From Halichondria panicea (lineage: Eukaryota > Porifera > Demospongiae > Suberitida > Halichondriidae), in assembly GCF_963675165.1 (NCBI RefSeq), contig NC_087381.1, positions 248,001 to 312,000 on the forward strand: 64,000 bases of DNA. Reading direction: 5' to 3'. A program made the translations under genes and the position numbers. The notes under the pieces are model-generated. The model ran no database searches and was not told the origin of the DNA. It saw only the letters and a list, made by a program, of their open reading frames with translations. This document shows, in pieces, positions 2,228 through 56,408 of the stretch; within the stretch, counting starts at the first letter, position 1, and every line of letters starts with the position of its first letter.

Positions 2228-2427
2228 AGATTGAGGGTCACATAATTATAGTGGGAGGCTGAGACAGCCCCGCCCCTCTTTGTTGGGAAGGTCGTACAAT
2301 TAACCACGCCCACTTAGCTTCTTGTTACCAATTGAGGGAAAAATTCTAATTATGACAACACAAAATAATGCATGGACAAAGTAAAATACTGGGTAACAGT
2401 TTCTAGAAATGTCTGCTAAAAGTTATT

Positions 2428-2463
2428 CCTTGTCTCTGATACACGACAAACTTGTATTTAACC
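2428..2463 (-). pseudogene. Inverted fragment of the DHFR last exon
   Basis: The minus strand repeats the end of the DHFR coding sequence (VKYKFVVYQRQ) nearly exactly, but the stop codon is replaced, so the frame runs on. Homology continues into the 3' flank down to about 2,240, including the GC-rich CAACAAAGAGGGG block. It is therefore a duplicated piece of the DHFR 3' end, not a functional exon. It marks an inverted duplication whose arms enclose roughly 560-2,230. Confidence 0.7.
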
Positions 2464-2928
2464 TTTCGTAGAGTTCATTCCTGCAGTGGAGAAACAACAA
2501 CAGTGACTCATACGCACACAGTCACATGACCACTTCGATTATTCTTGCCTCCTTGTCTGTGTTAGCCTATACTTGGTAATTGTTTTAACTTTACGACAAT
2601 GGAGCACAATCAAAGTACAACACAAACGCATAATTATTTTACGAGCTAGGAGATATAGTTGGTACCTTCTCCTCCAAAAGGAGCTGTGAGAGGGATTTCG
2701 AGGGTGGTGGGAGGGCTGTCGAGGATCCCCTGGGGGATATTCTCCACTTCTTTGGCTGTTGAGGATTCTGCGGGAGAGATTCTCTGCAGCGAGAGAACAC
2801 AAGAGAATGGATTAGTTGCACATGAAAATATTAATTGTAACGTTACAATGATTATGGCCGTATGTATAGTCATGTCATGTGGAACAACGGACATGTGCTA
2901 CAGTAGCACTGAATATGAAAGCAGCACC

Positions 2929-3021
2929 GCGGGTGCTGATGCCTCGGTGTCTACCTCAGGAGGTCTGCCTGGTATCATAGCGGGTGCTGATGCCTCGGTG
3001 TCTACCTCAGGAGGTCTGCCC
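2929..3021 (+). repeat. 51-bp in-frame direct repeat
   Basis: A 51-bp unit beginning GCGGGTGCTGATGCC is present at 2,929-2,979 and again, almost complete, from 2,980. The period is a multiple of three and the open frame across it repeats the peptide AGADASVSTSGGLP. The opening words of the unit also occur at 55,228-55,260 inside an inserted element, which suggests a mobile-repeat origin and not a protein-coding one. The 3' flank (ATCAAAGAGGCTCTCTGAAG, 3,031-3,050) recurs at 6,064. Confidence 0.6.
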
Positions 3022-3419
3022 GCGGGTGTTATCAAAGAGGCTCTCTGAAGCTAGAGGAAGGATAGAGGTGAGGCATTGGTATTAATACTAGATAGATCTA
3101 TATAGAACTAGGAGAACTGAGAATTATAGCCTAGGTCTAAGAGATTCTTGCAACTAGATCTATGTGTGCTCTGGATAGCGCCAATAGAAGATAGCTGCTA
3201 TAATTATGTATGTAATGGAAGTTATAAAATAATGTTGTTTAGGCCTCCAATGTAACTGAAGACATTGAAACTTGCAAGCATCTCTAGACCTTTATTTCAC
3301 TTATTGCCTCAAGCTTGACTCCTAACCATCAACAATATAACTATAGCCTGTTTGATATGTACTGCCTTTTCCCGCTGATGAGGCTGTACCCGTGATCTGC
3401 CTCAGCTGTAGACATTCAC

Positions 3420-4100
3420 GAGAATCGACTATATATAGCTATCACCATAGTCTCACTAGCTACAGAGTTGGTTGTGCTATATGAGTTTGTATGACTGAAA
3501 CAAGTCTGAACGGGGATATAGGTGAATCAATAAGCTAAAACATTATTCAAAAATATTTCCCCAAAAGTTGGTAATCGTACTGGGCATGCTCAGTACACAC
3601 CCTCACAGCTCCTCCTGGAGGAGAGGGTACCAACTATATATATATATATAGCTATTGAAACGACTGCTCAGAGGAGAATCTCCCCTAGGGGGACACGACA
3701 TATTTCAAGCCACCCTCCACAAGCATCCTCACAGCTCCTCCTGGAGGAGAAGGTACCAACTATATATAGCTATTTCCATAGTCTCACTAGCTACAGAGTG
3801 TCTTTACCCAATATGCATTGGTTGAGAGATGTCATAATGAATGCTCTATTGTTGTCTACGTGTATAGTGTGATACATCCCTCTTGTTATTGTGTTCTCTC
3901 CACTATAATACGCACACTTCCCGCCACTATATGTAGACCCTATCACCGTGACAATAAGAACTCCAGGACCCAGCCCCACACTCTCACAGCTCCTCCTGGA
4001 GGAGAAGGTACCATCTATATATAGCTATTTCCATAGTCTCACTAGCTACAAAGTGCCTTTAACCAATATGCATTGGTTGTGCTATATGCTGAGTAGGCAC
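3420..4100 (+). repeat. Clustered ~100-120 bp repeats with a palindromic core
   Basis: Several copies of a unit with the palindromic core GCTCCTCCTGGAGGAG, followed by AAGGTACCAACTATATATAG, CCATAGTCTCACTAGC and a tail ending CATTGGTTG, are seen near 3,610, 3,735 and 3,990. Related inverted copies lie at about 1,805-1,875 and 2,650-2,690. The cores are self-complementary and would form small hairpins. A second shared segment (ATTATTCAAAAATATTTCCC and following) occurs at 3,541 and 4,144. No coding potential was recognised. Confidence 0.65.
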
Positions 4101-14734: not shown

Positions 14735-15292
14735 TAAAGAAAGAACCAGAAGCGAAGGCAGAGGACAAATCGAAGGCCAAAACAGCCCTAGGAGGAACAG
14801 ACACAAGCAAGTTTTTGCACTTCCAGAAACCTAAGGGGTCACCCATACAGTTGCATTTCAGTGCTCCATGTCTTTATTTAGTTATATAAGGCGCTAAAGA
14901 ACGAAAAACAACTGCAACTAAGCTTTTCATCATCGGATTCAGAGGCTGATGTAGACGACCCAATAGAGTGGACGACCTCACAAACAGAACCAAACTCAAA
15001 ATGAACAACATTAGTGCAAAAATAGGAAATAATTAATTGCTAAAAAAGTTCATTACAACGAACATTCAAAGTCTGCCAGATGCTTGTTACTTCTATGGTG
15101 CTTGTATAGTATACAAACACACCACTTGGATATTCCGATTTGTGACCAACACTAACATGTCGGCCCACGCATAGTTATAATTAAATTACTGTTAGATGTA
15201 CATAAAGCACAGTACAGCAGTAATGTCATTACAACTTAAAATCTCCTTCTACTACAGTAAAGATGTCAAGGTAAGGCATAATATTAGTTGGT

Positions 15293-16832
15293 GTAGAATG
15301 CTTAATGAAGAAAAATGTTAGTATGCATAAACTAAACATCCTCTCTTCCACCTACTAATAGCTCTCTACCTCCTCCGTATAGCAACGACAGGAGAAACGA
15401 TCCTGACAAAGCTTATTTCCCATTTCCCCCGTACACAAACCATCGATACCAACACAACTTGCAACTGTCTGTAGAATTGCTTAATGAAGAAAAATGTTAG
15501 TATGCATAAACTAAACATCCTCTCTTCCACCTACTAATAGCTCTCTACCTCCTCCGTATAGCAACGACAGGAGAAACGATCCTGACAAAGCTTATTTCCC
15601 ACTTCCCCCGTACACAAACCATCGATACCAACACAACTTGCAACTGTCTGTAGAATTGCTTAATGAAGAAAAATGTTAGTATGCATAAACTAAACATCCT
15701 CTCTTCCACCTACTAATAGCTCTCTACCTCCTCCGTATAGCAACGACAGGAGAAACGATCCTGACAAAGCTTATTTCCCACTTCCCCCGTACACAAACCA
15801 TCGATACCACCACAACTTGCAACTGTCTATAGAATTGCTTAATGAAGAAAAATGTTAGTATGCATAAACTAAACATCCTCTCTTCCACCTACTAATAGCT
15901 CTCTACCTCCTCCGTATAGCAACGACAGGAGAAACGATCCTGACAAAGCTTATTTCCCACTTCCCCCGTACACAAACCATCGATACCAACACAACTTGCA
16001 ACTGTCTGTAGAATTGCTTAATGAAGAAAAATGTTAGTATGCATAAACTAAACATCCTCTCTTCCACCTACTAATAGCTCTCTACCTCCTCCGTATAGCA
16101 ACGACAGGAGAAACGATCCTGACAAAGCTTATTTCCCACTTCCCCCGTACACAAACCATCGATACCACCACAACTTGCAACTGTCTATAGAATTGCTTAA
16201 TGAAGAAAAATGTTAGTATGCATAAACTAAACATCCTCTCTTCCACCTACTAATAGCTCTCTACCTCCTCCGTATAGCAACGACAGGAGAAACGATCCTG
16301 ACAAAGCTTATTTCCCACTTCCCCCGCACACAAACCATTGATACCACCACAACTTGCAACTGTCTGTAGAATTGCTTAATGAAGAAAAATGTTAGTATGC
16401 ATAAACTAAACACCCTCTCTTCCACCTACTAATAGCTCTCTACCTCCTCCGTATAGCAACGACAGGAGAAACGATCCTGACAAAGCTTATTTCCCACTTC
16501 CCCCGTACACAAACCATCGATACCACCACAACTTGCAACTGTCTATAGAATTGCTTAATGAAGAAAAATGTTAGTATGCATAAACTAAACATCCTCTCTT
16601 CCACCTACTAATAGCTCTCTACCTCCTCCGTATAGCAACGACAGGAGAAACGATCCTGACAAAGCTTATTTCCCACTTCCCCCGCACACAAACCATTGAT
16701 ACCACCACAACTTGCAACTGTCTGTAGAATTGCTTAATGAAGAAAAATGTTAGTATGCATAAACTAAACACCCTCTCTTCCACCTACTAATAGCTCTCTA
16801 CCTCCTCCGTACAGTAACAACAGGAGAAACGT
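15293..16832 (+). repeat. 179-bp tandem repeat array, eight units plus a partial ninth
   Basis: Units begin at 15,293, 15,471, 15,650, 15,829, 16,008, 16,187, 16,366, 16,545 and 16,724 with the word TAGAAT(T)GCTTAATGAAG. Identity is very high and the period is 179 bp (178 for the first). Diagnostic variants show a dimeric order: units start alternately GTAG and ATAG from the third on, and a CGCACACAAACCATTG variant recurs in the sixth and eighth units, followed by an ACACCCTC variant in the seventh and ninth. This points to late amplification of a 358-bp dimer. The last unit diverges after CCTCCTCCGTACAG. No open frame of note is present. It is a satellite-like array of unknown function. Confidence 0.95.
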
Positions 16833-41318: not shown

Positions 41319-44300
41319 ATGTTGTCAAAGACAGAGCTTGAGGAGCTCCGTCCATGGGTGGCTGAGACGGTGCAAAACACGCTAGGGTACTCGCAAGATG
41401 CGCTAGTCATTACAGCGCTCGATTGCATTTCAAAGAACCTAAGCAGGCAGTCTACTACGGGTGAGCTAACCACGTGGTGTGTTGTAAGGGAGGCTTCGTG
41501 CTATTTGATCTGCATATTGATGATTTGACTGTAGCTAAATCTTATACCAGTAGAGGGAGGGACATCTTGTAGTTTGTGTCTTTTTTTTTTATTTACGCTT
41601 AAGTATCAATTGTCAGGCTCGTTATTTATCGTCCCCCAGCTTTAATTACGGACTACGTTAATCGCTCCATCCATAATTATGACGAGTATACTTGGCGAAG
41701 AGGCAACTCAACTATTAATTAATTATTACCAATGTTTAATTTGATGATGACATGCAATAATCCTCACGTACTTGATTTGCCAAATCATCAAAATTACGCT
41801 AAATTTACCTGCTATAATTATTATGGTATATCACTGTCTCAGACCAACTGGCACATTACCTTGCCAAGGAGGCGCCTAACTTCGTGGCTACTCTATACAA
41901 GAAGGTGTTGGAACTAAAGACGGCCAAGCTCATGTCAGCAAGCTTCACCAGTGCAAAGAAGCGCACTCTTGAACCTGGAGAAGACGAGGAGTTTGGCAAT
42001 GATGAGAAACCACCAGGTTAGAGAAGTTAGTGCCTCTAAAGTTACGGTTGTTCAAAAATGGAAATTTTGGCACTTATTATAATAATTGCAATGGGATGTC
42101 CTAGTTTTAGCATCTTTGAATGGCCATAACTTTAGTTCTAATGATCCAATTTCAATGATTTTCTGGTTTTCTGAAAGCTTAAAAAGAGCTCTTTAAAATA
42201 GTATGTTCAACTCTCAATTTTGCAACATGACCAAATTTCCCATTTTCGGCTAATGACCATGGGCTATAATCCATGGTGGTACGGCTAACTTAGAAAATAC
42301 TTTTATCTCTCGAATATCAACTTTGATGTTACCATTTGAAAGGTCTCTTTCTAAGCTTTCAGAAAACTATAAAAATGTTGACTTTCGATCCACAGAATTC
42401 AAGTTATGGTAGCTGAAAGATTCTCAAAATCATTAATTAAACGGAGGGGGGGGGGGTGTCTTTCAACAGCCATAACTTCAGTACCGTTGATCCAATGTCA
42501 AAATTTTTATGATTTTCTGAAAGCTTAGAAAATTACCTTTCAAACAATGTGTTTCAATCCAAAATTTCATTGGGGCCCTAATTTGTCATTTTTCGGCCTC
42601 GGACCATGGGCTATAATAATCCATGGTATTGCCAAATTGGCAAATACTTTTATCTCTCCAATATCAACTTTGATGGTACCATTTGAAAGGTCGCTTTCTA
42701 AGCTTTCAGAAAAACCTAAAATTTTGCTCCTTTTAAGCTTTCAGAAAACCATAAAATCATTGAAATTGGGTCACCAGAACTAAAGTTATGGCCGCTCAAA
42801 AAATATTAACTGTTCATACTTCCCACTCGTAGATTCTAAAAAGAAGCGAGCGAGTCGCTTTGCTGCCTCAGAAGATGAAGCCGCACCTCCTGATATTCAG
42901 CAGCTCCTCGAGAACACGAGGCGACAAATTGAAGAGAGGAAAAAGCAAACTCAAGCCATGCTCATTCAAACAAGAGCTCAGGTGATCCAGTCATGTGACA
43001 ATGCTCTCGTTAATTGTTGAATTATTTGTCAGAATTCGATTGTTTTGCTGAACTATTTTACGTACATACTTATATATATTATATTTTTCTCTCCAGGGTC
43101 TCATAAATAATAAATTGTATAAAATATCGTCCATAGTGACTGTTTTGCTATCTGTGCCGTGTTTTTTCCCTCCAGGTTCCCACCAATGTCCTCCCAGGTG
43201 TGGTACCCAGTCTTCTCCCCACTACCCCCCACTACCCTCAGGCCCCCGCTCCGTCCCCGGCAAGTCTTGACCCTGGGGCCATGGACAAGGCTAAGAGAAT
43301 GAGCGAGGTACTGCATACATTGTGTATAATAGTGTATTGTAATAGATATAGCATGAAACCGAGTGTTTTATGTTCATTAAAATTACTATTATGATTAACT
43401 CCTTGCTCCCTGGTTATTCATGTACACTGTACACTTTAGTTGCAGGCGCGTATTCAGAGCCAGCTGATGCAACAGCCCGGCCTGCTCTCAGGGAACAAAG
43501 CTTCCTCCGTCAAACCCACACCACTCATCCTAGATAAGGAAGGAAGAACAGTGGATAATCTAGGCAGAGCTATACAACTATCAGTTAGACAGCCGACACT
43601 CAAGGTAAACCACCCACCATGCATGAGAGGTTCATATAAGTTATGTGATATAAAAAGCTTTTCACTGGAAATAATGCAGTGAAGTAATAATAGCTACTAT
43701 AGTTTTATGAGAATTTTAAAATTAAAAATGGTATCCATTTTACTTCTCCCCCCCCCCCCCCCACACACACACACACCGCTCACACCACACAGGCAAACAT
43801 CCGTGCTCAGCAGAGGGCCACGTTCCGTCAGATCACAGAGAAGAAGACGAGTGTGAAAGAAGTGGAGCGTGTGGAGGGGGCGTTTGTTGATGGACGAGTG
43901 AGACAGGGCGTGGCGGGGAGGACCAAGAAACAACTCGCCTTCAATGAACCAGGTGCGTGGACTGTGTCTAGTGTAGCATCTTTGAATGGCCATGGTTTTC
44001 TGCCTACCACTGAATCTGTTTAACAGTGTTATACTATAAAAGGGACCGTTTCAGGTTACTGGGTGGAGGGTGGGCTTTAGGTAACTTCAGCCATACTATG
44101 CCAGTATCTAGATAGTGGCACAGTTCAAGGCTTGACCTGTGCCATATGGCAGATATTGGCACAGTGCTTCCTTTGATCTGCCCACTCAAAATGTGGTAGC
44201 CATGGCAGTGATGCAACATGCCATATACTGAGCACTGGATTGCTTTGATCTGCCCACTCACTGGGCAACAAGGGCTATATATATAAAGCCCGTGGTATTT

Positions 44301-47300
44301 TGCAAAAATGGGTCAACTGATATTTGATTTGAACATACCAACTGAAAGAGCTCCTTTTAAGCTTTCAGAACCACAATATCATTGAAATTGGGTCACCAGA
44401 ACTAAAGTTATGGCTGCTCAAAAAATGAATTTTGGCACCAGCGTCTTTGAACGGCCATAAATTTGTTACAATTCTTTATTTTCTGACAGCTTTATAAGGA
44501 GCTCTTTTAAAATAATGATATATTTAATTAATACGAAAACTAGTTGTAATTATATTGCTGCATCATCCTCTTATCTCTGGTTCCATCTCCAGGAAAGTAC
44601 GTGAAGCAAGGCCAAGTGTTGAGAGCCAAAGCACAACTAGAAGCCCTTCAAACGCAGATAGCTTCCGTTGCTAGGAAGACCGGTATCTCCTCGGCAACCA
44701 AATTGGCGCTGATTGCCCCCCAAGATGGTAACGACGGGGGCATCCCCAACACCGAGTGGTGGGACGCAGTCATCATATCTGGCGAGAGGTAAGAGTGATC
44801 GAATACTGGTATAATTCGAGGGTATAAATGTTTGCGGTTTTCGCTGATTAAAGCATGTACCGCGCAGTTCACATTTATACCCACAAATTTAATATCGCAT
44901 GCATGCATGCTGCAGAAAGGCTGCTATTTCCACGAAAATTAAATCCGCGAAAGTTTATACCCTTGAAATATACACTACCGTGTTCATGTAGCGCGTAATA
45001 ATCATAATTTAAAAAAATGGTGCTACAATGAAAATATTAAAGTTTCGTATACATTAGAGAGTGGTGCTATAATTAGAACAAAAATATGGTAGTTCAGAAC
45101 AGTACAAAATAAATAACGTGAATTGCTATTCTGTTAGTATTCTCAGTTGTGGCCATCCTTTCACTCGTCTCACTGCCCTCACAAGGTCGGCTGCATTATC
45201 CACCCACTCCACTCTCACACGCCCCCTCGTGGTTGTTACGACGACCACGCTCCCGTGTTCGGACTCTAAACAGATGTGACGTATATCTAGAAGCGGTATA
45301 AACGATTTGTGCAAATAGCATTTTCTCCATCCCCTATAGTGCAGTCCCTTGTTGGTCAGATGGAGGTCCCACTTGGCACGATTAAGACAGCACCAGCCAC
45401 AGTAGAACGGTATCAATGGTAGTCCCAGTATACTGGCTGCCATTACTGATATAACGCAAGCATCTTTACGATTGACAGCTCTCTTACTCAATTTCCCGTT
45501 GAATGTTGTTAGTTCGATGTCTTCTTTCCTTGTACGCCTCTCCCAGACTGTTGTGTCCATTTTCTCAGCTGCTGCTGCTTCCAAATCAACTTTTATAATA
45601 GTAGAGTATTCTTGTGCTGGACTGTACTCACTGAAAGTGACTGTTGTCCTTGAGACATCTTCTTCTCTCTGCTTCTCTGCCATAGCATCTTCATAGCTAG
45701 GTGGTGGTGGAGGAGTCTTGTGATACATCGTTTCACTAGCTATCTCTCTTCAAATTGTTGTTGAAAGTTGAAAGTCGTACTCTTGTTATTACAGCTACTG
45801 TTATTACAGCTACATGTACTCTCTTTAATAGCTTCTTTAGTGATTGTAAACAATCTGTCTGTGTACTCAACCTTAGTTGCTATGGGAGGGTAATTGCTGG
45901 TATCTATGACGCTATGAATGCTGTTACTGATTAGTGTTGCTCAGTGTTAAGCATGTTAGAATGCTGCCTTGGTTGCTATACTGGCCTGTAATAGAGCTAA
46001 CTAAGCCTCTCAGTGATATTATCCTAGAAGGAAGACTGAGTTAAACTGTAAATAGAGCTGGAGTATAAGACACTTAATATATTGATACACTGTGTGGGTT
46101 GTGACATGTTGTAAGTAGTTGCTATTAATACTGGTGTAGGAAGATCCTGTTCTGTGGCTCTCCAGGAAAAGTTGTTACAATTGTTCACTGACTGTGTTCG
46201 GGTTTCCTGATGCTCCATTGATTCCTTCCCATTAGTACAGTCATGCATAACCATAGTAACGTGTTAGATTGCATGCAAGCAGTGAGTGGGAGTATTGTAT
46301 GCATAATTATTCTGTAGCAACGGATTCTTTCCTCCAAACAAGTATATTCATTACAATAATAATAACTTTCCGTATAGCATTTTTTTTTCGTGGATTGCTC
46401 AAGCTAAACACTACATTTCGCGGATTTTATTTTCGAGGATAGAGCTTCAAATGACCACATCCCTATAGTAGTGAGGTTCAATCCGCGAAAACTGCTAAAT
46501 ATTAGCTCCTAGAAAATAAAGCGCTACTGACAGTGTGTAAAGTAAAATACATATTTAACGTAATTTTGCAGTAGCTAGCTAGAAATTATCATAACATTTA
46601 TTATCAAAAAAATGAAGTAACTTAATATTATAGCCACACCTTAACCACACCCACATGTATGTTATAGCCACACCTTAACCACACCCACATGTATGTTGTA
46701 AGTTACGACTGTACAGTATTTAAAAGTTACAGATCGTTTCCATGTGATAACTTCGATCAATATTCTCGTTCTGTTTCTTTACAGCTGCCACAAATCTCGG
46801 CGCATTTTTCACATTTCGTAGCACCAAATAGTCGCCATAGCGATAGCAAGGACATGTAGCTATCTCCGCAATTTGATCTCGATTGACATACACACGAATC
46901 GAAGTTGATCCCACTATGGCGATGTTTTGAACCTCCTGTAAGGGTATAAACCACGTCTCCCTCCAGCCAAGGAATGATGACGTGTACTGGATGCCGTCAG
47001 TTGTTAGATAGAGCTTCCATTGCCTCAAAGAAAGTAACATCGATATACTTATCCATACCAGTAACGGTAGCAGTGGTAGCGCTAGTATACATAATACTAG
47101 ATAGACACAAGTTACGGTCTTGTGTTCAAGCTCTCCATGTATTAGAATATCTGTATTTCTTTCTTCTCTAGCTTGTGTGCTTGTTACAGAGCCGTAGCTA
47201 CATGTAGTAGCCATCTTGTGTGTGTGTATAGTGACGTAGCTAGAGAGATGGTTGTACAGAGATAGGCTATTATAGACAATGGGGAAATGGCTGTCATTGT

Positions 47301-49798
47301 GTCCTGTAAGTGTGTGTGTATTCTATCACCATTATTACTAGCAAGTCTTTGCAAATGAATTAACAGAAATGTTGACAATTTGTACCCTAAGGTGACATAT
47401 TTTTGCGGGTATTCATTTCAGCTATTTCTGCAAATTAAAGTAAAATCACCAAAAATGTGTACTCGCAGATAATTGGAAAATGCATATACATGTCTGCTAA
47501 CATTCCTCCTCCACACACACACACAGCTACGCCGACGCCACCCTCTCCCAAATTCCACCCCAGTCACGCTTCAAAGGCATCACAAGTCTGATCGAACATC
47601 CAGTGAAAGTACAGCCTCCAGCAGAACCAAACAAAATGGCCGCCCTCCCGATTATCCTGACATCAAGAGAGAGGAAGAAGCTCCGAAAGCAGCGGAGGAG
47701 AGAGGCAGAGAGGGAGAAACAAGAGAAGATACAGTTCGGTCTTATTGACAAACCTGAACCAAAGGTGAGTAGCTAGGGTCCGTTATCTGAGTTAAAATTT
47801 TGAAAATGGACCTGTTTTGATGTCTAACTTTTTGCGGCCATAACTTTTGTTTCGTTGGTCCCAGAACGTTAATTTTACGATTTTCTGAAAGCTTAGAGAG
47901 AGGCCTTTCAGATGATGTGTTAAAACCAAAAGTCTATTTTTGACCTGGTTTCGACAAAAAACCATGGGCTATAGCTATAGCCCATTGTTTTTTCCCGAAA
48001 ATAGGAAATTCTGGTCCGTTCCAAATTTGGGATTTAAGCACACCATTTGAACGGGCTCCGTTTAAGCTTTCATAAAACCATAAAATCGTTGAATTTGGAC
48101 CATTAGAACTTGTGTTTTTGTAATCTCATCCACTATTCCCTCCCTCCAAACACCAGGTCCGTATTAGCAACCTGATGAGAGTGTTGGGCAGTGAGGCAGT
48201 ACAAGATCCCACTAAAGTGGAGGCACATGTCCGAGCTCAGATGGCCGAGAGACAAAGGTGTGTGGGTGTGAGTGTGGGCGTGTGTGTGTGGGGGGGGCGT
48301 GTGTGTGTGAGCAACGACAGACTAGTACTGTGATCCTGATAATATGAGCTATAGCTGTACATATGGAGTCCTCTTAGAAACTTGACAACGACAGCAAACT
48401 AATACTGCACTATAATTATACAGACCCAGAGCATAATAATTATTACAGTGTACATTGTATAATTATGTGCAACTTTATTCCAATGTTTTGTTTCTTCCTT
48501 TATTACCTCCAGGACGCACGAGGCGGCTAACTTGTCTCGTAAGCTCACGCCCGCGCAAAGAAGTGCTAAGAAAGTGGCAAAGATGAAGGAAGACTTGTCA
48601 TGTGGTGTGCATGTGACTGTATACAGGGTTCACGACCTCTCGAAGCCGGCAATAAAGTTCAAAGTGGATATGAACGCACAGCAGTTGCACTTGACTGGTT
48701 GTGTCATGTTATTCCCCGATGTCAACCTCGTTATTGTGGAGGGAGGTACGTAGGTCATGTGATCAGTAGTCATTGTCATGTGACTGAGGGATGGTTGTAA
48801 CTTTACTATATTGACGGTCTACATGTACATGTATAGTGACATGCCCAGAATATTTGCAGTGGTGGCTATTTTTCAATCCTCAATCTCTCTCAATTTAGCA
48901 TACAAATTTGCCTCTTTATAGCCTGGTATTAACCAAGATGTGGTTATATTTTGTCTAGTGGTGGTTAGTACCAACCACCACTGACCAGTGTGTGGGCACA
49001 TCCCTGAGATTGTATGTGTGGTCATTGTGAATCAGTACATGTGATGCAATATTCCCCCAGGCAACATGTATGCCCACACACTCCCCCAGGCTACATGTAT
49101 GCCCACACACTCCCCCACGCTACATGTATGCCCACACACTCCCCCAGGCTACATGTATGCCCACACACTCCCCCAGGCTATGCCCTCACACTCCCCCGGG
49201 CTATGCCCACACACTCCCCCGGGCTATGCCCACACACTCCCCCAGGCTATGCCCTCACACTCCCCCAGGCTATGCCCTCAGGCTTGTCCATGTATTCAGT
49301 GACTTGTGTATGCAGGTCCTAAAGCACTGAAGAAGTTTAAGAGGCTCATGATGAACAGGATAAAGTGGAAGCCCAAGAAAGCGGCAGCAGGTGTGTGTGT
49401 GTGTGGTGTGGGCGTGTGTGTGGTGTGGGCGTATATGTGTGTGTGGAGTGTGCTTTATGACATTTGCCTTTAGCTTAGAGGTTGCCTGAATTTTGGGACC
49501 AAATCTTATTCCATTACTATAACAACAAGATTAATTGATCTCCTCTGTTTTACCTCTAATCTGTCCCCCCCCCCCCATAGATGATGATAACGACTCGGAC
49601 GGTGAAGGTCATGTGACTAACATGTGCAGTGTGGTGTGGGAGGGGGTGGTCCACGACAGGGCGTTCAATGATTGGAGAGTGCGTAACTTCCCCACCGAGC
49701 CTCTCGCACGGGATCATCTCAAGCGACATAAGATTGAACATTATTGGGACCTGGCGCTGAGTCAGCGAATTGTAGAGCAGGAAGAGGAGGAGTCTTGA
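41319..49798 (+). CDS. PRPF3: U4/U6 small nuclear ribonucleoprotein Prp3
   Basis: Twelve exons: 41319-41460, 41843-42016, 42833-42981, 43176-43307, 43440-43604, 43793-43952, 44593-44788, 47527-47764, 48157-48257, 48513-48745, 49316-49390, 49581-49798. Phases close and give 660 residues (human 683). It is a component of the U4/U6.U5 tri-snRNP in the spliceosome. Residues 1-75 form a PWI-like N-terminal domain ([17 protein letters not shown]). The middle has [25 protein letters not shown] and [16 protein letters not shown]. The C-terminal half has [45 protein letters not shown] and [19 protein letters not shown], and ends with [25 protein letters not shown] follows at 49,989. Intron 7 (2.7 kb) contains two opposite-strand genes. 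Exons 8-12 are duplicated at 53.4-56.1 kb. Confidence 0.96.
42040..42815 (+). repeat. Two fold-back repeats, family 1, in PRPF3 intron 2
   Basis: Two tandem units. The first runs from TTTGAATGGCCATAACTTTA to GAATTCAAGTTATGGTAGC. The second starts near 42,465 (CAACAGCCATAACTTCAGTA) and ends with AACTAAAGTTATGGCCGCTC. Both have TTTTCTGAAAGCTTA on the left, CTAAGCTTTCAGAAAA on the right and a central ACCATGGGCTATAAT. Confidence 0.8.
44325..44530 (+). repeat. Partial fold-back repeat, family 1, in PRPF3 intron 6
   Basis: Right-arm sequence (TTTTAAGCTTTCAGAACC and CAGAACTAAAGTTATGGC) followed by the start of another left arm (GTCTTTGAACGGCCATAAAT). The left half of the first unit is missing. Confidence 0.6.
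44811..44973 (+). repeat. Fold-back repeat, family 2, in PRPF3 intron 7
   Basis: The outer arms are ATTCGAGGGTATAAATG on the left and AGTTTATACCCTTGAAATAT on the right. The centre has GCATGCATGCATGC. Orientation is opposite to the copy at 34.7 kb. Confidence 0.75.
45126..45728 (-). CDS. Nested membrane protein with PH-like C-terminal domain (copy A), inside PRPF3 intron 7
   Basis: Single exon, 200 residues. It starts [20 protein letters not shown], carrying a PPxY-type motif (PPSY) that WW-domain ubiquitin ligases bind. A hydrophobic segment (about 97-115, [18 protein letters not shown]) is followed by [40 protein letters not shown] and a final [13 protein letters not shown] helix. The alternation of strands and terminal helix after a membrane segment resembles small PH-like (bPH2-type) membrane domains, which is an inference by eye. 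It is homologous in layout to the genes at 46.7 kb and 52.5 kb, with the shared signature W-x-x-(Y/H)-L-T-x-x-G-(I/L)-x-Y and F-I-P-L-x-(E/D)-(V/I). Function unknown. Intact and intronless. Confidence 0.75.
   Translation of the reverse strand: MYHKTPPPPPSYEDAMAEKQREEDVSRTTVTFSEYSPAQEYSTIIKVDLEAAAAEKMDTTVWERRTRKEDIELTTFNGKLSKRAVNRKDACVISVMAASILGLPLIPFYCGWCCLNRAKWDLHLTNKGLHYRGWRKCYLHKSFIPLLDIRHICLESEHGSVVVVTTTRGRVRVEWVDNAADLVRAVRRVKGWPQLRILTE
46374..46510. repeat. Imperfect inverted repeat in PRPF3 intron 7
   Basis: Left block CGCGGATTTTATTTTCGAGG and right block TCAATCCGCGAAAACTGC, with TTTTTTTCGTGGATTGC at the left edge, form imperfect complementary arms. The style is similar to family 2, but the sequence is different. 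A 34-bp tandem duplication (TATAGCCACACCTTAACCAC unit) lies downstream at 46,629-46,695. Confidence 0.5.
46720..47214 (-). CDS. Nested membrane protein with PH-like C-terminal domain (copy B), inside PRPF3 intron 7
   Basis: Single exon, 164 residues, starting [20 protein letters not shown]. Two adjacent hydrophobic stretches (about 32-65: [20 protein letters not shown] and VWISISMLL) form a hairpin or one long membrane segment. They are followed by [44 protein letters not shown] and the C-terminal helix [13 protein letters not shown]. The fold is inferred to be a small PH-like beta-sandwich on the cytosolic face. It is a paralogue of the 45.1 kb and 52.5 kb genes. The first half of this gene is duplicated at 51.9-52.1 kb. 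It lies antisense within a PRPF3 intron, so it needs its own promoter. Its function is unknown. Confidence 0.75.
   Translation of the reverse strand: MATTCSYGSVTSTQAREERNTDILIHGELEHKTVTCVYLVLCILALPLLPLLVWISISMLLSLRQWKLYLTTDGIQYTSSFLGWRETWFIPLQEVQNIAIVGSTSIRVYVNRDQIAEIATCPCYRYGDYLVLRNVKNAPRFVAAVKKQNENIDRSYHMETICNF
47815..48115 (+). repeat. Fold-back repeat, family 1, in PRPF3 intron 8
   Basis: The left arm GCGGCCATAACTTTTGTTTC and TACGATTTTCTGAAAGCTTA pair with the right arm CGTTTAAGCTTTCATAAAAC and ACCATTAGAACTTGTG. The centre is ACCATGGGCTATAGCTATAG, followed by CCCATTGTTTTTTCCC. The duplicated intron at 53,695-54,005 carries the same insert, so it predates the segmental duplication. Confidence 0.8.
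49055..49285 (+). repeat. Minisatellite in PRPF3 intron 10
   Basis: About nine units of 21-28 bp built on CCCACACACTCCCCCAGGCT, in a long subtype with ACATGTATG and a short subtype (CTATGCC). All three plus frames stay open through it and give His/Thr/Pro-rich artefact peptides. The duplicated intron at 54.9 kb retains only one to two units, so the array expanded after or contracted since the duplication. Confidence 0.9.
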
Positions 49799-50120
49799 TC
49801 GCATGATCACATGATATAGTCACATGACATATTGGACATTATACATGACTTTTTGTAGATATCTATTATAAAACAAGAACTTTGCTTAAGAATATCTAAT
49901 TATAGGTCATTATTTTAATTTTTGTTGAATAGTATGTATACATGTACGTACATGTTGAGGTGATTATGCTGTTAATTGTCAATTTATCAATAAATTTGTT
50001 GAGTATCTGTCAGAATAGTGAAAGCGGAAGAGATAATAATTATAATATGACAGTTCTGAGTCTTACAAAGATTTGCTTTGAACACGGTGAATAACTATTG
50101 TGTACATGATGTTGACTTTA

Positions 50121-50202
50121 TAGCCTCGATTCCAGGCCGCTCTCAATTGAGAAAGACAACTAACCCTCTCTATAGTAGTGAGAGGGGCTGGGATCGAGGC
50201 TA
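50121..50202. mobile_element. 82-bp MITE with 9-bp target duplication
   Basis: The ends TAGCCTCGAT and ATCGAGGCTA are perfect inverted repeats, with imperfect pairing continuing inwards (TCCAGGCC against GGGGCTGGG). TTTGACTTTA-like flanks resolve to the exact 9-bp duplication TTGACTTTA at 50,112-50,120 and 50,203-50,211. The same target length is seen in the elements at 23.3 and 57.2 kb. Confidence 0.75.
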
Positions 50203-50440
50203 TTGACTTTACTGCTTGCTCTATATACACATGATGTGCATCCGCTGTATATAATTATGTGCTTATTATGTATACATAATCCATATGCACATACCACATT
50301 AATCTTTGTCACTCTCAATTATATAATAAGCCAAAACAATGGCAAGCAGATCATAAAAACCTATATATATAATAAAAATTATACTGAGTGCCAACGTTAA
50401 AAAAAAAAGCGGTCTGGCCAGAAACTGCTTAGGGGGTAAG

Positions 50441-50637
50441 GTACTACTTTTTAGGGTAGCATAAGTACTGCTTTTCGAAAGCAGCATAAGTACTACTTTT
50501 AACGGTAGCATAAGTACTGCTTTTGAGGGCAGCATAAGTACTGCTTTTGAGGGCAGCATAAGTACTACTTTTTAGGTAGCATAAGTACTACTTTTTAAGG
50601 TAGCATAAGTACTGCTTTCGAGGGCAGCATAAAGTAC
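50441..50637 (+). repeat. ~24-bp minisatellite
   Basis: About eight units of GCATAAGTACTGCTTTTGAG type, with TACT/CTGC variants. The minus frame gives a repetitive MLPSKAV peptide that I regard as an artefact. It sits between the PRPF3 3' end and the duplicated segment. Confidence 0.85.
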
Positions 50638-51062
50638 ACTACACCGAGCAGTGCATACTGAGGTTACAGAACTCCGGATAAAGTAGCGCTCTGGGGTGGG
50701 CCAGTTTCCCGACACCCAACCACCAGCTCCGGAGCCCCATGAATAACCCAAGCGCTACATTGGGTCACCGGAAGTGGTTTGTATAAAGTGGGCACTGCAG
50801 CCTTGCAGGTGCAGAGACAAGCCCCTCCCTCTCACTCTCTGGCCACACCTCTCTTGAGAAATGAAACACACAGAAGGAAGGAATGTTATTTGACACTCAC
50901 AGTACAGTGCTGGCTAGAGGACCTGGTGAATATAACACAAAGCCTTAAGGAGGGTAAATCTACTCTTGTCAGTAAAATATCGAATATGACTTTATATGTA
51001 CCCCATATTCTCGTACAGACAACACCTCTCCAAGCATACTATTACAATATTAAGAACCATGG

Positions 51063-51140
51063 ACAATTTGGAGGACCCTTTATCGTACACAATTTGGAGG
51101 ACCCTTTATCGTACACAATTTGGAGGACCCTTTATCGTAC
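51063..51140 (+). repeat. 26-bp triplication
   Basis: Three exact copies of the unit ACAATTTGGAGGACCCTTTA plus TCGTAC at 51,063, 51,089 and 51,115. The period is not a multiple of three, so the open frame through it changes frame with each copy. Confidence 0.9.
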
Positions 51141-51900
51141 CTACCGGACCCTCCTGACGAGTCGTTGCCTAGCGATTGTTGTGTGTGGCACAGGGTGCAC
51201 TCCATGCGTTAACGTTATGGACATCTACCACGATGAGCTGCAAACATGGACGACACTGGTTGCCATGACTCCACTGGAAAGAGCCGCTTGGAGACGTGAA
51301 AAACTGGGACGTTTAGAGGGAAGAGAGTTACCTGTCAAGTCTGCATTGTCTACGAATGAGTTCACAGCACTTACGGTGAAGGATATTGTACAAGTTACAG
51401 AGGATTCACTTGTGTACACTATATCTCTGCCTGATGGTCGTTGCCTGGGTTACCAGCCTGGCCAGCACTGCATACTCAGGGGAGTGATACCCTAACCCTT
51501 CCATCTATTGTGGTACTAAACATAATTGTAACTGAGTAGCCTGCTCTGTCTATATATTGTACACGTACCCAAGCTTACTATATAGTGTTAATATTTCTAC
51601 AGGGGGTTTGTTGATTCTTCCGAATGCTCTGTGACTAGACAGTACACACCAATCTCTCCACCGGATGAAGATGGTTCCTTTGCTGTGCTTATCAAGGTGA
51701 GCAGCCAGCACACACAGTATGCCATAATGGTTATCAAGGTGAGCAGCCAGCACACACAGTATGCCATAATGGTTATCAAGGTGAGCAGCCAGCACACACA
51801 GTATGCCATAATGGTTATCTGTATGTCCTATAGTAACCTCTCTAAGTTGTACAAAGATGGACGTGTGTCGGAGATGATTAGAGCGTGGGCGGTGGGAACA
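51141..51900 (+). pseudogene. CYB5RL: Truncated NADH-cytochrome b5 reductase-like gene fragment
   Basis: The frame around 51,170-51,480 reads CGTGCTPCVNVMDIYHDELQ, then TW, and later ENEFTALTV-like and GYQPGQHCILRG. This matches the N-terminal Cys motif and the start of the FAD-binding domain of CYB5RL. A second exon (from about 51,603) reads GFVDSSECSVTRQYTPISPP and DEDGSFAVLIK, containing the RxYTPISPP flavin-binding motif. A third part, YSNLSKLYKDGRVSEMIRAW, continues the domain. The sequence then joins a copy of the PRPF3 intron 7 membrane gene at about 51,901, and the rest of the reductase (FAD/NADH domains) is missing. The splice phase between the first two parts does not close by one base with the visible donor. 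Called a broken gene fragment; whether a complete copy exists elsewhere is unknown. Confidence 0.65.
51691..51816 (+). repeat. 42-bp triplication duplicating a 5' splice site
   Basis: Three direct copies of a 42-bp unit at 51,691, 51,733 and 51,775, each starting ATCAAGGTGAGCAGCCAGCA. The first copy contains the natural exon end of the CYB5RL-like fragment (LIK followed by the GTGAGC donor), so the array offers three identical, in-frame donor sites spaced by 14 codons. Confidence 0.9.
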
Positions 51901-52135
51901 GTGACGTGTACTGGATGCCGTCAGTTGTTAGATAGAGCCTCCATTGCCTCAAAGAAAGTAACATCGATATACTTATCCATACAAGTAATGGTAGCAGAGG
52001 TAGCACTAGTATACATAATACTAGATAGACACAAGTTACGGTCTTGTGTTCAAGCTCTCCTTGAATTAGAATATCTTCTGTATTTCTTTCTTCTCTAGCT
52101 TGTGTGCTTGTTACAGAGCCGTAGCTAGTAGCCAT
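51878..52135 (-). pseudogene. Truncated duplicate of nested membrane gene B
   Basis: The minus-strand frame repeats the first ~80 residues of the 46.7 kb protein ([46 protein letters not shown]) with few changes, then ends in unrelated residues where the homology stops at about 51,901. It lacks the PH-like strands and the C-terminal helix. The break coincides with the junction to the CYB5RL-like fragment, so it marks the left edge of the segmental duplication. Confidence 0.8.
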
Positions 52136-52471
52136 CTTGTGTGTGTATGTATAGTGACGTAGCTAGAGAGATGGTTGTACAGAGATAGGCTATTATAGAC
52201 AATGGGGAAATGGCTACCATTGTGTTTATGTCTAAACTGTGTAAGTGTGTGTGTACTCTAGAATGTTTTGCAAGTGTTTGCATTATTATCTTTGATGCTC
52301 ACAAAAGAGTTACGATATACATTTAAATACATTAACTTTTTACTACAGACAATTTAGTTGCTACGGTATTAGCTATCGGGCTCATAATTATAGTCAATAA
52401 TGATTATTCAACTATTTGTATGTATGTAGTTTGACATCTTAAGTCATTTATAAGTTAGTACAGAAGTTCTT

Positions 52472-53221
52472 TTATAGCCGCTCTGTCTCAGCCTGCACAG
52501 TATTCAGTTCTCTTTGACCGTGCTGCTCTTCTTTAACAGCAGCTGTAAACTGGCGTGCATTATTCATTGGGCCCAATACTATCTCCTTGGCACCACACGT
52601 CCATAAATAACAAGTTTTATCGGTTTTGACTCGAATGTTGATATAGTTACTGTGATATCGGTACACACGGATGTTTGTAATTTCGTCAATTGGAATCAGT
52701 TTTGTTGAATCTTTTACAAAGCATGAGCAGCACGCTTTGTTGTCCAGGGCAACTGTGTACCAGATGCCTTTGCTGGTTAGGTACGTCCGCCATTTCTTTT
52801 TGTATGCGCAATAGCCACAAAGGCACCAAATGAAGAAAGGAAAAAGACCAAGCAAAATTGCAACACAACACAAAATTGGGCCGAGAATTGCTTTGGCAAA
52901 AATGAAAAGCTTGACTCCAAATTTGATTCCTTTATTACGTTTTTCTCGATTGAAAACATCGTCTAAAATTGCTTCACAAATAATCTCGTTGCCATGTTCA
53001 TCCACTGGAATGGAAATCAATTCTCCCTCCATTAAACTATCCACTGGAATGGAAATGGATTCTTGACTTCCCTCCATTGAACTAGCTCTAGAACTGCCTG
53101 TGCTAGTAGCACCTTCTGTAGTAGTAGCTTCATGGAGAACAGGCGAAGAAGTTGGAGAAATAGGAATAGCAACGTTTGTAGCCATCTCTTTTCTTTGTTG
53201 TGCTAGTCTACATTGTACCAT
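52472..53221 (-). CDS. Membrane protein with PH-like C-terminal domain (copy C)
   Basis: Single exon, 249 residues. It starts at the first Met (53,219-53,221); a second Met 13 codons in (MATNVAIPIS) aligns better with copy B. An N-terminal Ser/Thr-rich segment holds a repeated ISIPVD motif (about 56-75). A long hydrophobic stretch (about 107-137, ILGPILCCVAILLGLFPFFI and WCLCGYCAY) precedes KKKWRTYLTSKGIWYTVALD, TKLIPIDEITNIRVYRYHSN, INIRVKTDK and a final NNARQFTAAVKEEQ helix. It shares the family signature with copies A and B. It lies inside the second copy of the PRPF3 intron but has no counterpart at that position in the first copy. Intact; function unknown. Confidence 0.75.
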   Translation of the reverse strand: MVQCRLAQQRKEMATNVAIPISPTSSPVLHEATTTEGATSTGSSRASSMEGSQESISIPVDSLMEGELISIPVDEHGNEIICEAILDDVFNREKRNKGIKFGVKLFIFAKAILGPILCCVAILLGLFPFFIWCLCGYCAYKKKWRTYLTSKGIWYTVALDNKACCSCFVKDSTKLIPIDEITNIRVYRYHSNYINIRVKTDKTCYLWTCGAKEIVLGPMNNARQFTAAVKEEQHGQRELNTVQAETERL

Positions 53222-53694
53222 ATAATTATATGTATGGAGATTTTCTTTGACTGATTGTTTTCGAGGCTTACAGTATTTTTTGACTGTTTCAAAAATGTGT
53301 ATATCTTTCTGTTTACACTTTTTTATATTAATTTTATATTATAATTATTATTGTATTTTATCCTCATAACTCATCATGTACGCTAATATTCCTCCACCCA
53401 CACACACACACAGCTACGCCCACGCCACCCTCTCCCAAGTTCCACCCCAGTCACGCTTCAAAGGCATCACAAGTCTAATCGAACATCCGGTGAAAGTACA
53501 GCCTCCAGCAGAACCAAACAAAATGGCTGCCCTCCCGATTATCCTGACATCAAGAGAGAGGAAGAAGCTCCGAAAGCAGCGGAGGAGAGAGGCAGAGAGA
53601 GAGAAACGAGAAGATACAGTTCGGTCTTATTGACAAACCTGAACCAAAGGTGAGTAGCTAGGGTCCGTTATCTGAGTTAAAATTTTGAAAATGG

Positions 53695-54005
53695 ACCGGT
53701 TTTGATGTCTAACTTTTTGCGGCCATAACTTTTGTTTCGTTGGCCCCAGAACGTTAATTTTACGATTTTCTGAAAGCTTAGAGAGAGGCCTTTCAGATGA
53801 TGTGTTAAAATCAAAAGTCTATTTTTGACCTGGTTTCGACAAAAAACCATGGGCTATATAGCCCATGGTTTTTTCCCGAAAATAGGAAATTCTGGTCCGT
53901 TCCAAATTTGGGATTTAAGCACACCATTTGAACGGGCTCCGTTTAAGCTTTCATAAAACCATAAAATCGTTGAATTTGGACCATTAGAACTTATGTTTTT
54001 GTAAT
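53695..54005 (+). repeat. Duplicated fold-back repeat, family 1
   Basis: This is the counterpart of 47,815-48,115 within the second PRPF3 segment. Its central palindrome (ACCATGGGCTATATAGCCCA then TGGT) is more perfect than in the first copy, where a few bases differ. Confidence 0.8.
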
Positions 54006-55223
54006 CTCATCCACTATTCCCGGCCCTCCAAACACCAGGTCCGTATTAGCAACCTGATGAGAGTGTTGGGCAGTGAGGCAGTACAAGATCCCACTAAAGT
54101 AGAGGCACATGTCCGAGCTCAGATGGCCGAGAGACAAAGGTGTGTGGGTGTGAGTGTGGGGGGGGCGTGTGTGAGTAATTAACGACAGACTAGTACTGGG
54201 ATCCTGAGCTATAGCTGTTCATGTGGAGTCCTCTTAGAAACTTGATAATGGCAGCAAACTAATACTGCACTATAATTATACAGACCAAGAGCATAATAAA
54301 AAATTAATAATAATTATTACAGTGTACATTGTATAATTATGTGCAACTTTATTCCAATGTTTTGTTTCTTTCTTTATTACCTCCAGGACGCACGAGGCGG
54401 CTAACTTGTCTCGTAAGCTCACGCCCGCGCAAAGAAGTGCTAAGAAAGTGGCAAAGATGAAGGAAGACTTGTCATGTGGTGTGCATGTGACTGTGTACAG
54501 GGTTCACGACCTCTCAAAGCCGGCAATAAAGTTCAAAGTGGATATGAACGCACAGCAGTTACACTTGACTGGTTGTGTCATGTTGTTCCCCGATGTCAAC
54601 CTCGTTATTGTGGAGGGAGGTACGTAGGTCATGTGATCAGTAGTCATTGTCATGTGACTGAGGGATGGTTGTAACTTTACTATATTGACGTTCTACATGT
54701 ATAGTGATATGCCCAGAATATTTGCAGTGGTGGCTATTTTTCAATCCTCAATCTCTCTCAATTTAGCATACAAATTTGCCTCTTTATAGCCTAAAATGTG
54801 GTATTAACTAATAGCTAGGCCTAAGATGTGGTTATATTGTTTACGTAGCGGTGGTTTGTACCAACCACCACTGACCAGTTGTGGGCACATTCCTGAGATT
54901 GTACACATGGTCATTGTGAATCAGTGCAATATTCCCCCAGGCTATGCCCACACACTCCCCCATGCTATGCCCTCAGGCTCGTGCATTTATTCAGTTACTT
55001 GTGTTGCAGGTCCTAAAGCACTGAAGAAGTTTAAGAGGCTCATGATGAACAGGATAAAGTGGAAGCCCAAGAAAGCGGCAGCAGGTGTGTGTGTGTGTGT
55101 GGTGTGGGCGTATATGTGTGTGTGGAGTGTGCTTTATGACATTTGCCTTTAGCTTAGAGGTTGCCCTTTATAGAATAGTGAATTTTGGGACCAAATCTTA
55201 TTAATATTCCATTACTATAACAA

Positions 55224-55695
55224 TGAAAGCACCGCGGGTGCTGATGCCTCGGTGGAGGTGCCAAAGCTACATAACATAAAAGCTAGCTTTTATACACACA
55301 TTGATTATAATGATTAATTTTGCTGCATGCAGAATCCAGAATCACAGGGAAACTCAAAGAGTGGGTAATGATCCACGATGATTGTTGTTAATGCCAAAAG
55401 TTCAAGTCTAAAATTAATGGCTGCAAGTCAGCTCTCTTCTCACTCTTGCAGGTACCAATAGCTAGCGTTCTAGTGCAGAGTTAACTACTAAGTAGAGTAG
55501 CAACACTCGGTGAACAAGTTTTGCTACAGACTCTTCTGAAAAGGCTGCAATGGCATTCCAAGTAAGCAAAACTAGGCATAACTCGAGAACGAAGCTTTAT
55601 TTTGCAAATCCACAAATACCAAGCCAAGAAAACATGACTAGAAGCCTATAGAAACTCCTACTTGCACTTCATTGATCCTTGAGCAGCTGAAACAG

Positions 55696-55738
<43 letters not shown>

Positions 55739-55805
55739 AGAGAGACACACACAGAGACACACAAACACACTACCGTATACCTCGCTTGCGCATGCGCACC
55801 GAGGC
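55224..55805. mobile_element. ~582-bp insertion in the duplicated PRPF3 intron 11
   Basis: Comparison of the two PRPF3 copies shows extra sequence in the second, bordered by ATAACAA on both sides (55,217-55,223 and 55,806-55,812), a possible 7-bp target duplication. The left end carries CACCGCGGGTGCTGATGCCT, shared with the 51-bp repeat at 2.93 kb, and TGCCTCGGTG, which is the reverse complement of the CACCGAGGCA at the right end. A (CA)n tract lies at 55,699-55,735. No open frame of note is present. It is a non-autonomous mobile element of unknown class. Confidence 0.65.
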
Positions 55806-56408
55806 ATAACAACAATGATCTCCTCTGTACTACCTCTAATCTGTCCCCCCCTCTATAGATGATGATAACGACTCGGACGGTGAAGGTCATGTGACTAACA
55901 TGTGCAGTGTGGTGTGGGAGGGGGTGGTCCACGACAGGGCGTTCAATGATTGGAGGGTGCGTAACTTCCCCACCGAGCCTCTCGCACGAGATCATCTCAA
56001 GCGACATAAGATTGAACATTATTGGGACCTGGCGCTGAGTCAGCGAATTGTGGAGCAGGAAGAGGAGGAGTCTTGATCACATGATCACATGATATAGTCA
56101 CATGACATATTGGACATTATACATGACTTTTTGTAGATATCATATAATTATTATGAACTTGGTTAAGAATATCTAATTATAGGTCATTATTTTAATTTTC
56201 TTTGATTAAAATAATAGTATGTATAATTATGTAGAGGTGAAGATGCTGTTTGTTATTAATTACTTGTTGTCAATTTATCAATAAATTTGTTAAGTATCAG
56301 AATAGTGAAAGTAAATAAAAGGATCGAAGAGATAATATAATGACTGTTTTGTGGTTTTATGTGGTCAAATGTTCAGTCATGTGATTAAACTAAGAGTCAT
56401 GTGATGGA

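Follow-up and report, generated by a model that had tools for sequence, protein, structure and literature searches.

A direct duplication of the 3' half of PRPF3 in the sponge Halichondria panicea, with an interposed fragment copied from a second chromosome

In the demosponge Halichondria panicea, the 3' half of the splicing-factor gene PRPF3 is found twice on the same contig, which raises the question of how the second copy arose and whether it still contributes to a PRPF3 product. A first-pass annotation of this region had described a recent, rearranged duplication of nearly identical sequence and had offered two readings of the second copy, namely a young pseudogene or an alternative 3' end reached by splicing over the first copy. 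Here we report an analysis of a window of 64 kb (C5:248001-312000; "the window" denotes this whole stretch of DNA) together with the assembled genome (131.5 Mb, 39 contigs). Positions refer to the window unless another contig is named, and the features of the locus are collected in Table 1.

Table 1. Features of the duplicated PRPF3 locus and of related sequences elsewhere in the genome.
Feature	Position	Strand	Description	Basis
Homology block 1	46978-47302 = 51902-52225		94%	self-comparison
Homology block 2	47489-49093 = 53375-54967		92%, with gaps	self-comparison
Homology block 3	49238-49486 = 54933-55165		91%	self-comparison
Homology block 4	49536-50024 = 55816-56311		90%, with gaps	self-comparison
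PRPF3, complete version	41319-49798	+	first recognised exon to stop, with copy-1 exons 8-12	open frames, hPrp3 match, Pfam
Copy-1 exons 8-12	47527-47764, 48157-48257, 48513-48745, 49316-49390, 49581-49798	+	one open frame, all junctions GT/AG	
Copy-2 exons 8'-12'	53414-53649, 54039-54139, 54387-54619, 55010-55084, 55859-56076	+	2-base deletion near the end of exon 8'	
Gene A	45126-45728	-	200 aa; nested, outside the duplication	
Gene B	46720-47214	-	164 aa, full length; nested	
Gene B'	51878-52135	-	5' half of B, cut at the joint; 94% over residues 5-81	
Gene C	52472-53221	-	249 aa; one genomic occurrence found; relative of A and B	
Further A/B/C family member	C1:5849158-5849598		172-residue frame	
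Dispersed repeat between the copies	50056-50797		24-bp internal array	self- and genome comparison
CYB5RL-like 5' fragment	50798-51905	+	decayed; copied from C3 ~8189160-8190239	C3 alignment, FAD_binding_6
Microhomology TGAC	51902-51905		4 bases, C3/C5 joint	alignment
Dispersed repeat in copy 1	47383-47484		~100 bp, where copy 2 has gene C	genome search
Dispersed repeat in copy-2 intron 11	55222-55813	+		empty site in copy 1

Self-comparison and alignment revealed one large direct repeat in the window, in which 46978-50052 recurs as 51902-56346, and the duplicated content comprises PRPF3 exons 8-12 with their introns and flanks. The homology starts inside the nested gene B and runs to approximately 50052 and 56346, beyond the AATAAA signals at 49989 and 56280, in line with the first-pass annotation. 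Its main observations on copy 2 were likewise borne out: exon 8' carries a 2-base deletion followed by a premature stop, intron 11 holds a repeat for which copy 1 has an empty site, and the left edge at 51902 fuses gene B' to a broken oxidoreductase gene, which we take to be CYB5RL-like. The term "nearly identical" was too strong. When gene B is left aside, 46 of 1389 non-coding positions (3.3%) are substituted, and there are 44 non-coding indels in 1559 bp; with the first stretch of the tally included (336 bp with 9 mismatches, of which 233 bp are gene B coding sequence), the substitutions come to 55 of 1725 (3.2%). A whole-genome search with 53400-56100 as the query found the PRPF3 part at these two places and nowhere else among the 40 of 4711 candidates that were scored, most of the remaining candidates being the dispersed repeat of intron 11.

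Copy-1 exons 8-12 form a frame of 287 aa that matches human Prp3 in solved spliceosomes (E 2.1e-103) and the Pfam families PRP3 and Prp3_C, and the first recognised exon at ~41319 presumably corresponds to the start of PRPF3. The domain search also returned a Peptidase_A22B match. Copy 2 retains all four introns of its exons 8'-12', and its five acceptors and four donors are intact, with the same phases as in copy 1. The reading frame closes after 72 codons of exon 8', and downstream of the deletion another frame encodes 222 aa identical to copy 1, with 8 synonymous changes. On the present sequence, a full PRPF3 can be obtained solely via copy 1.

Unprocessed (duplicated) pseudogenes keep their introns, lie adjacent to the parent gene and carry frameshifts. 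The retained introns, the missing exons 1-7, the frameshift and the early stop of copy 2 are those of an ordinary duplicated pseudogene, one that was identical to its parent at birth and neutral since; unlike such pseudogenes, copy 2 shows coding constraint over most of its divergence. The exons of the two copies differ by 14 substitutions in 865 nt, 12 synonymous and 2 nonsynonymous (at residues 3 and 9 of the tail, before the frameshift), plus one indel. Given the transition bias of the non-coding sequence, 75% of random changes would be nonsynonymous, and 60% would be expected had copy 2 been neutral since the split; for copies identical at birth, finding at most 2 of 14 then has a probability of 0.0006, and the neutral share of copy-2 time is at most 42% (95% limit). 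Copy 2 alone should have gained 10.3 nonsynonymous changes at the rate of the non-coding sequence, against 2 observed over both lineages (P=0.002). For indels, 12.2 are expected on copy 2 in the 863 bases used for this and the rate test, against 1 seen (P=7e-5); if the indel rate is taken as one half or one third of this value, P rises to 0.016 or 0.09, respectively, and these weaker values are the safer ones since part of the non-coding indels sit in simple repeats. It is the substitution test, rather than the indel test, that bears the claim of constraint.

Neutrality since an identical birth is rejected by the substitution and indel tests, and we regard the ordinary pseudogene as very improbable. 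Since the exon differences are almost all synonymous, the copies appear to have diverged mainly while both were under coding constraint, and the exon pattern demands constraint on copy 2 for over half of the time since the two copies separated. Of the young pseudogene proposed earlier, the recent disabling is thus retained, whereas most of the divergence is not that of a pseudogene. Both indels between B and B' are in frame, against 8 of 44 non-coding indels in multiples of three, and the substitutions (3 nonsynonymous and 4 synonymous, counted by hand from the alignment) give no clear sign of constraint.

The main rival to redundancy is that copy 2 serves as an alternative 3' end, with exon 7 spliced to either exon 8 or exon 8', both tails selected and the 2-base deletion recent. 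The constraint on the copy-2 exons over most of the divergence is in its favour, as are the kept splice junctions, phases and poly(A) signal and the state of the adjoining CYB5RL-like fragment, which has decayed beside little-changed PRPF3 exons (P about 0.09 for the comparison of indels). The two tails nevertheless encode nearly identical proteins (with 2 differing residues ahead of the frameshift and, in the other frame, none behind it), which leaves no evident function for a choice between them; splicing would have to bypass the upstream tail, which is complete and has a poly(A) signal too, and the copy-2 tail is now frameshifted. The route from exon 7 to exon 8' is possible on paper, as the first-pass annotation had supposed, and would meet a stop after 72 codons of exon 8', with the Prp3_C domain and four splice junctions still to come, so that it cannot give a normal PRPF3. 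Its truncated message would probably be degraded, presumably by NMD. We consider the alternative 3' end unlikely, and a related version, in which copy 2 was selected as a second 3' cassette whose frameshifted tail now acts as an NMD switch lowering PRPF3 when the first tail is skipped, seems to us hardly probable. The best reading of the copy-2 exons is that they are redundant and were broken by the 2-base deletion.

The origin of the arrangement is best approached from the ~1.85 kb that separate the copies (50056-51901) and are part of neither. The left part is a dispersed repeat whose long form, as found on C1 and C10, begins where the homology between the copies ends; by eye, a hairpin-like stretch at ~50123-50203 interrupts it. 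Collinearity of the piece with C3:8188746-8190239 begins at ~50296; on C3, too, a related repeat precedes the gene, and the right part of the piece is a fragment of that gene with a Pfam match to FAD_binding_6. Fragment and C3 source differ at 24 of 949 bases (2.5%, four stretches summed), which is near the 3.2% between the PRPF3 copies. The source is still in place on C3, as for a templated copy from a distant locus. At the right joint, the C3 match runs to ...GGGAACAGTGAC and the copy-1 match starts at TGACGTGTACTGG, the bases TGAC being common to both, and the CYB5RL-like exon and gene B are truncated alike at this point. The left joint is the end of the dispersed repeat, a relative of which also adjoins the C3 donor, and its exact base cannot be fixed. 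The donor gene on C3 itself lies in a direct duplication (C3:8189943-8193948 and C3:8198970-8203000, ~9.03 kb apart), which is 96% alike over at least 4 kb and begins in an intron of the CYB5RL-like gene.

The observed order of copy 1, repeat, C3 fragment and copy 2 is that expected from replication moving from C5 to C3 and back to C5, and the TGAC microhomology, together with the dispersed repeat at the left joint, indicates replicative template switching; an insertion templated from a source left in place and a joint with microhomology are both found here. The rearranged duplication of the first-pass annotation is thus supported, and a template switch through chromosome C3 would account for it. 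We give about even credence to the full explanation, a complex direct duplication by replicative template switching that returned via the other allele and whose second copy was broken recently. Copying would have run off the end of PRPF3 on C5 and moved to C3, probably via the shared dispersed repeat; there, the start of the CYB5RL-like gene would have been copied, followed by a return jump through TGAC to C5 inside the nested gene B and onward toward the next gene, presumably a dUTPase by its motifs. We infer that this was a single event and that it had this direction.

A stepwise origin has to be weighed against this explanation: a plain tandem duplication, then the insertion, in one step or several, of the repeat and the CYB5RL-like fragment (the repeat being a possible carrier), and a deletion cutting B'. 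Over 50630-50797, in the right part of the repeat, the relative on C1 is the better match (3 substitutions in 168 positions and 1 gap column, against 7 in 166 and 9 gap columns for the relative on C3), a difference that argues against straightforward copying of the C3 repeat. The repeat also ends where homology between the copies stops. A repeat already at C5 with the switch inside it and a stepwise history would both fit the closer C1 match, and the left joint may have been a separate event. A stepwise origin nevertheless requires more events, the block keeps the C3 order of repeat and CYB5RL, and the divergence of the fragment from C3 is similar to that of the copies; we hold it to be distinctly unlikely. 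The fragment differs from C3 by several small, frame-breaking indels, which suggest that the event lies further back than expected of a very young duplication. It also contains two fresh tandem expansions of about three perfect units each at 51063-51140 (26 bases) and 51689-51819 (42 bases), and the 42-base unit holds a possible splice donor.

Under replicative template switching, a return onto the other allele would be the simplest account of the exon pattern. The copies would then stem from two functional alleles and have been different at birth: the mostly silent exon changes would be old allelic differences, as would the variable presence of gene C, the 50056 repeat and the intron-7 repeat, and only the 2-base deletion would need a recent date. 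Copy 1 would provide the working PRPF3 tail and copy 2 would keep the only gene C. This requires alleles ~3% apart, and an allelic origin is suggested by the allele-like pattern of the differences. Redundant allelic contigs were sought by viewing the starts of 8 high-numbered contigs among the 39 and searching 3 kb of three of them: C22 (143 kb, unplaced-looking; 1001-4000) equals C2:2417429-2420428, on a chromosome-sized contig, at 100% over the 3 kb sampled, which lends no support to a high allelic divergence, C28 consists of repeats and C20 is without a close second copy.

The same observations bear on whether the duplication is an assembly artefact, in which the primary contig would contain both haplotypes, placed head to tail. 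The differences between the exons resemble those between alleles, the assembly has at least one redundant stretch (C22), and haplotypic duplications, 28 and 11, were reportedly removed from two published sponge assemblies (PMC12398682, PMC13087572). The copies are nevertheless separated by sequence foreign to both and partly from C3, with a 4-base joint and no overlap, and an overlap assembler would hardly create base-level joints to a third locus. In addition, the left flanks of the two copies differ, and the window is free of any N. We therefore judge an artefact to be quite improbable.

The nested genes offer a further view of the ancestral locus. Genes A and B lie fully inside a PRPF3 intron on the opposite strand, bounded by exon 8 and by an exon that ends near 44790, and gene C stands in the equivalent intron position of copy 2. 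Protein comparisons relate all three (B-C 30%, E 1e-12; B-A E 1e-8; C-A E 3e-7). Genome searches with A, B and C singly (E 0.01) found A, B, B', C and one gene on C1; these searches were not fully sensitive, as the B and C queries missed A and the A query missed C, and more distant relatives may be present elsewhere in the genome. None of the three has a Pfam match above the cut-off; B has a weak one to GRAM (18.8 bits against a cut-off of 23.6), A and C have none. They appear to belong to a small gene family that clusters at the PRPF3 locus and whose members look single-exon and contain a hydrophobic stretch. A structure model of C built from the A/B/C alignment is too poor (mean pLDDT 47.7) to identify the family and only suggests a long helical stretch followed by strands.

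Gene C had been described as an insertion into copy 2, and the history was probably the reverse. A fresh insertion is disfavoured by the genome searches, in which all relatives found except the gene on C1 lie at this locus, and by the low likeness of C to B; since B' is 94% like B and C only 30%, C is not derived from B' and would predate the duplication, and its position beside A and B indicates that it stood in intron 7 beforehand. Most likely, copy 1 has lost C, or the allele from which copy 1 descends lacked it, so that copy 2 holds the sole C. At the corresponding position, copy 1 has ~55 unmatched bases and the ~100-bp dispersed repeat, and a search there for a remnant of gene C found none (score 15.7 against a shuffle 95% point of 16.5). 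On the two-allele reading, gene C, formerly inside PRPF3, would now probably lie beyond the working gene and no longer be nested.

The repeats within the copies add to the chronology. The repeat facing gene C occurs at 39 other places (83-90%) among the 40 of 334 candidates scored. For the intron-11 repeat, 38 of the 40 candidates scored (out of 4711) are long matches at other places; it also shows a possible 5-bp target duplication, AACAA, which is not constant in the other copies looked at. It carries 5 private substitutions in 512 positions (1.0%), against ~1.6% per lineage between the PRPF3 copies, and would thus have arrived after the lineages split, though not yesterday. Copy-1 intron 10 contains a minisatellite (49053-49277, units of 23-29 bases) of which approximately one unit is left in copy 2, and elsewhere in the window self-comparison showed a tandem array at 15292-16831 with ~179-base units that are 95-99% alike.

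The PRPF3 locus resembles complex rearrangements formed during replication, presumably those named FoSTeS or MMBIR. A literature search on partial duplication of PRPF3 returned work on ocular genetics only. Human interchromosomal insertions are reported to arise by iterative template switches (PMC5120786) and share with our locus the gain of a copy, the templated insertion of a piece of another chromosome and microhomology at the joint; the PRPF3 case differs in being evolutionary and diverged, in a sponge, with its left joint at a dispersed repeat. Heterogeneous duplications of ace-1 in mosquitoes reportedly associate different alleles of a locus for good (PMC5137868, PMC6121789), and the PRPF3 copies may likewise join different alleles, although here this is deduced from their differences; unlike ace-1, only the 3' half of the gene is involved, there is no known advantage and one copy is disabled. 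The gene lrrtm4 is reported to have become un-nested from its ctnna host after duplication (PMC3933685), so that in both cases a nested gene would lose its host context after a duplication, with the surrounding host copy lost. The present duplication is small, local and partial rather than whole-genome; it took in no more than the 3' half of the host, and the other copy lacks C.

New relative to the first-pass annotation are the C3-derived block with its TGAC joint, the probable loss of gene C from copy 1 and the constraint on the copy-2 exons. The combination is instructive, although each kind of event is already known. It provides a case, at the level of single bases, of how one template switch may copy a portion of an essential gene, join sequence from another chromosome to it and free a nested gene. 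The possible joining of two different alleles by the duplication can be enough to leave traces of selection in a "young pseudogene", and would be a trap for the dating of duplicates in highly polymorphic animals.
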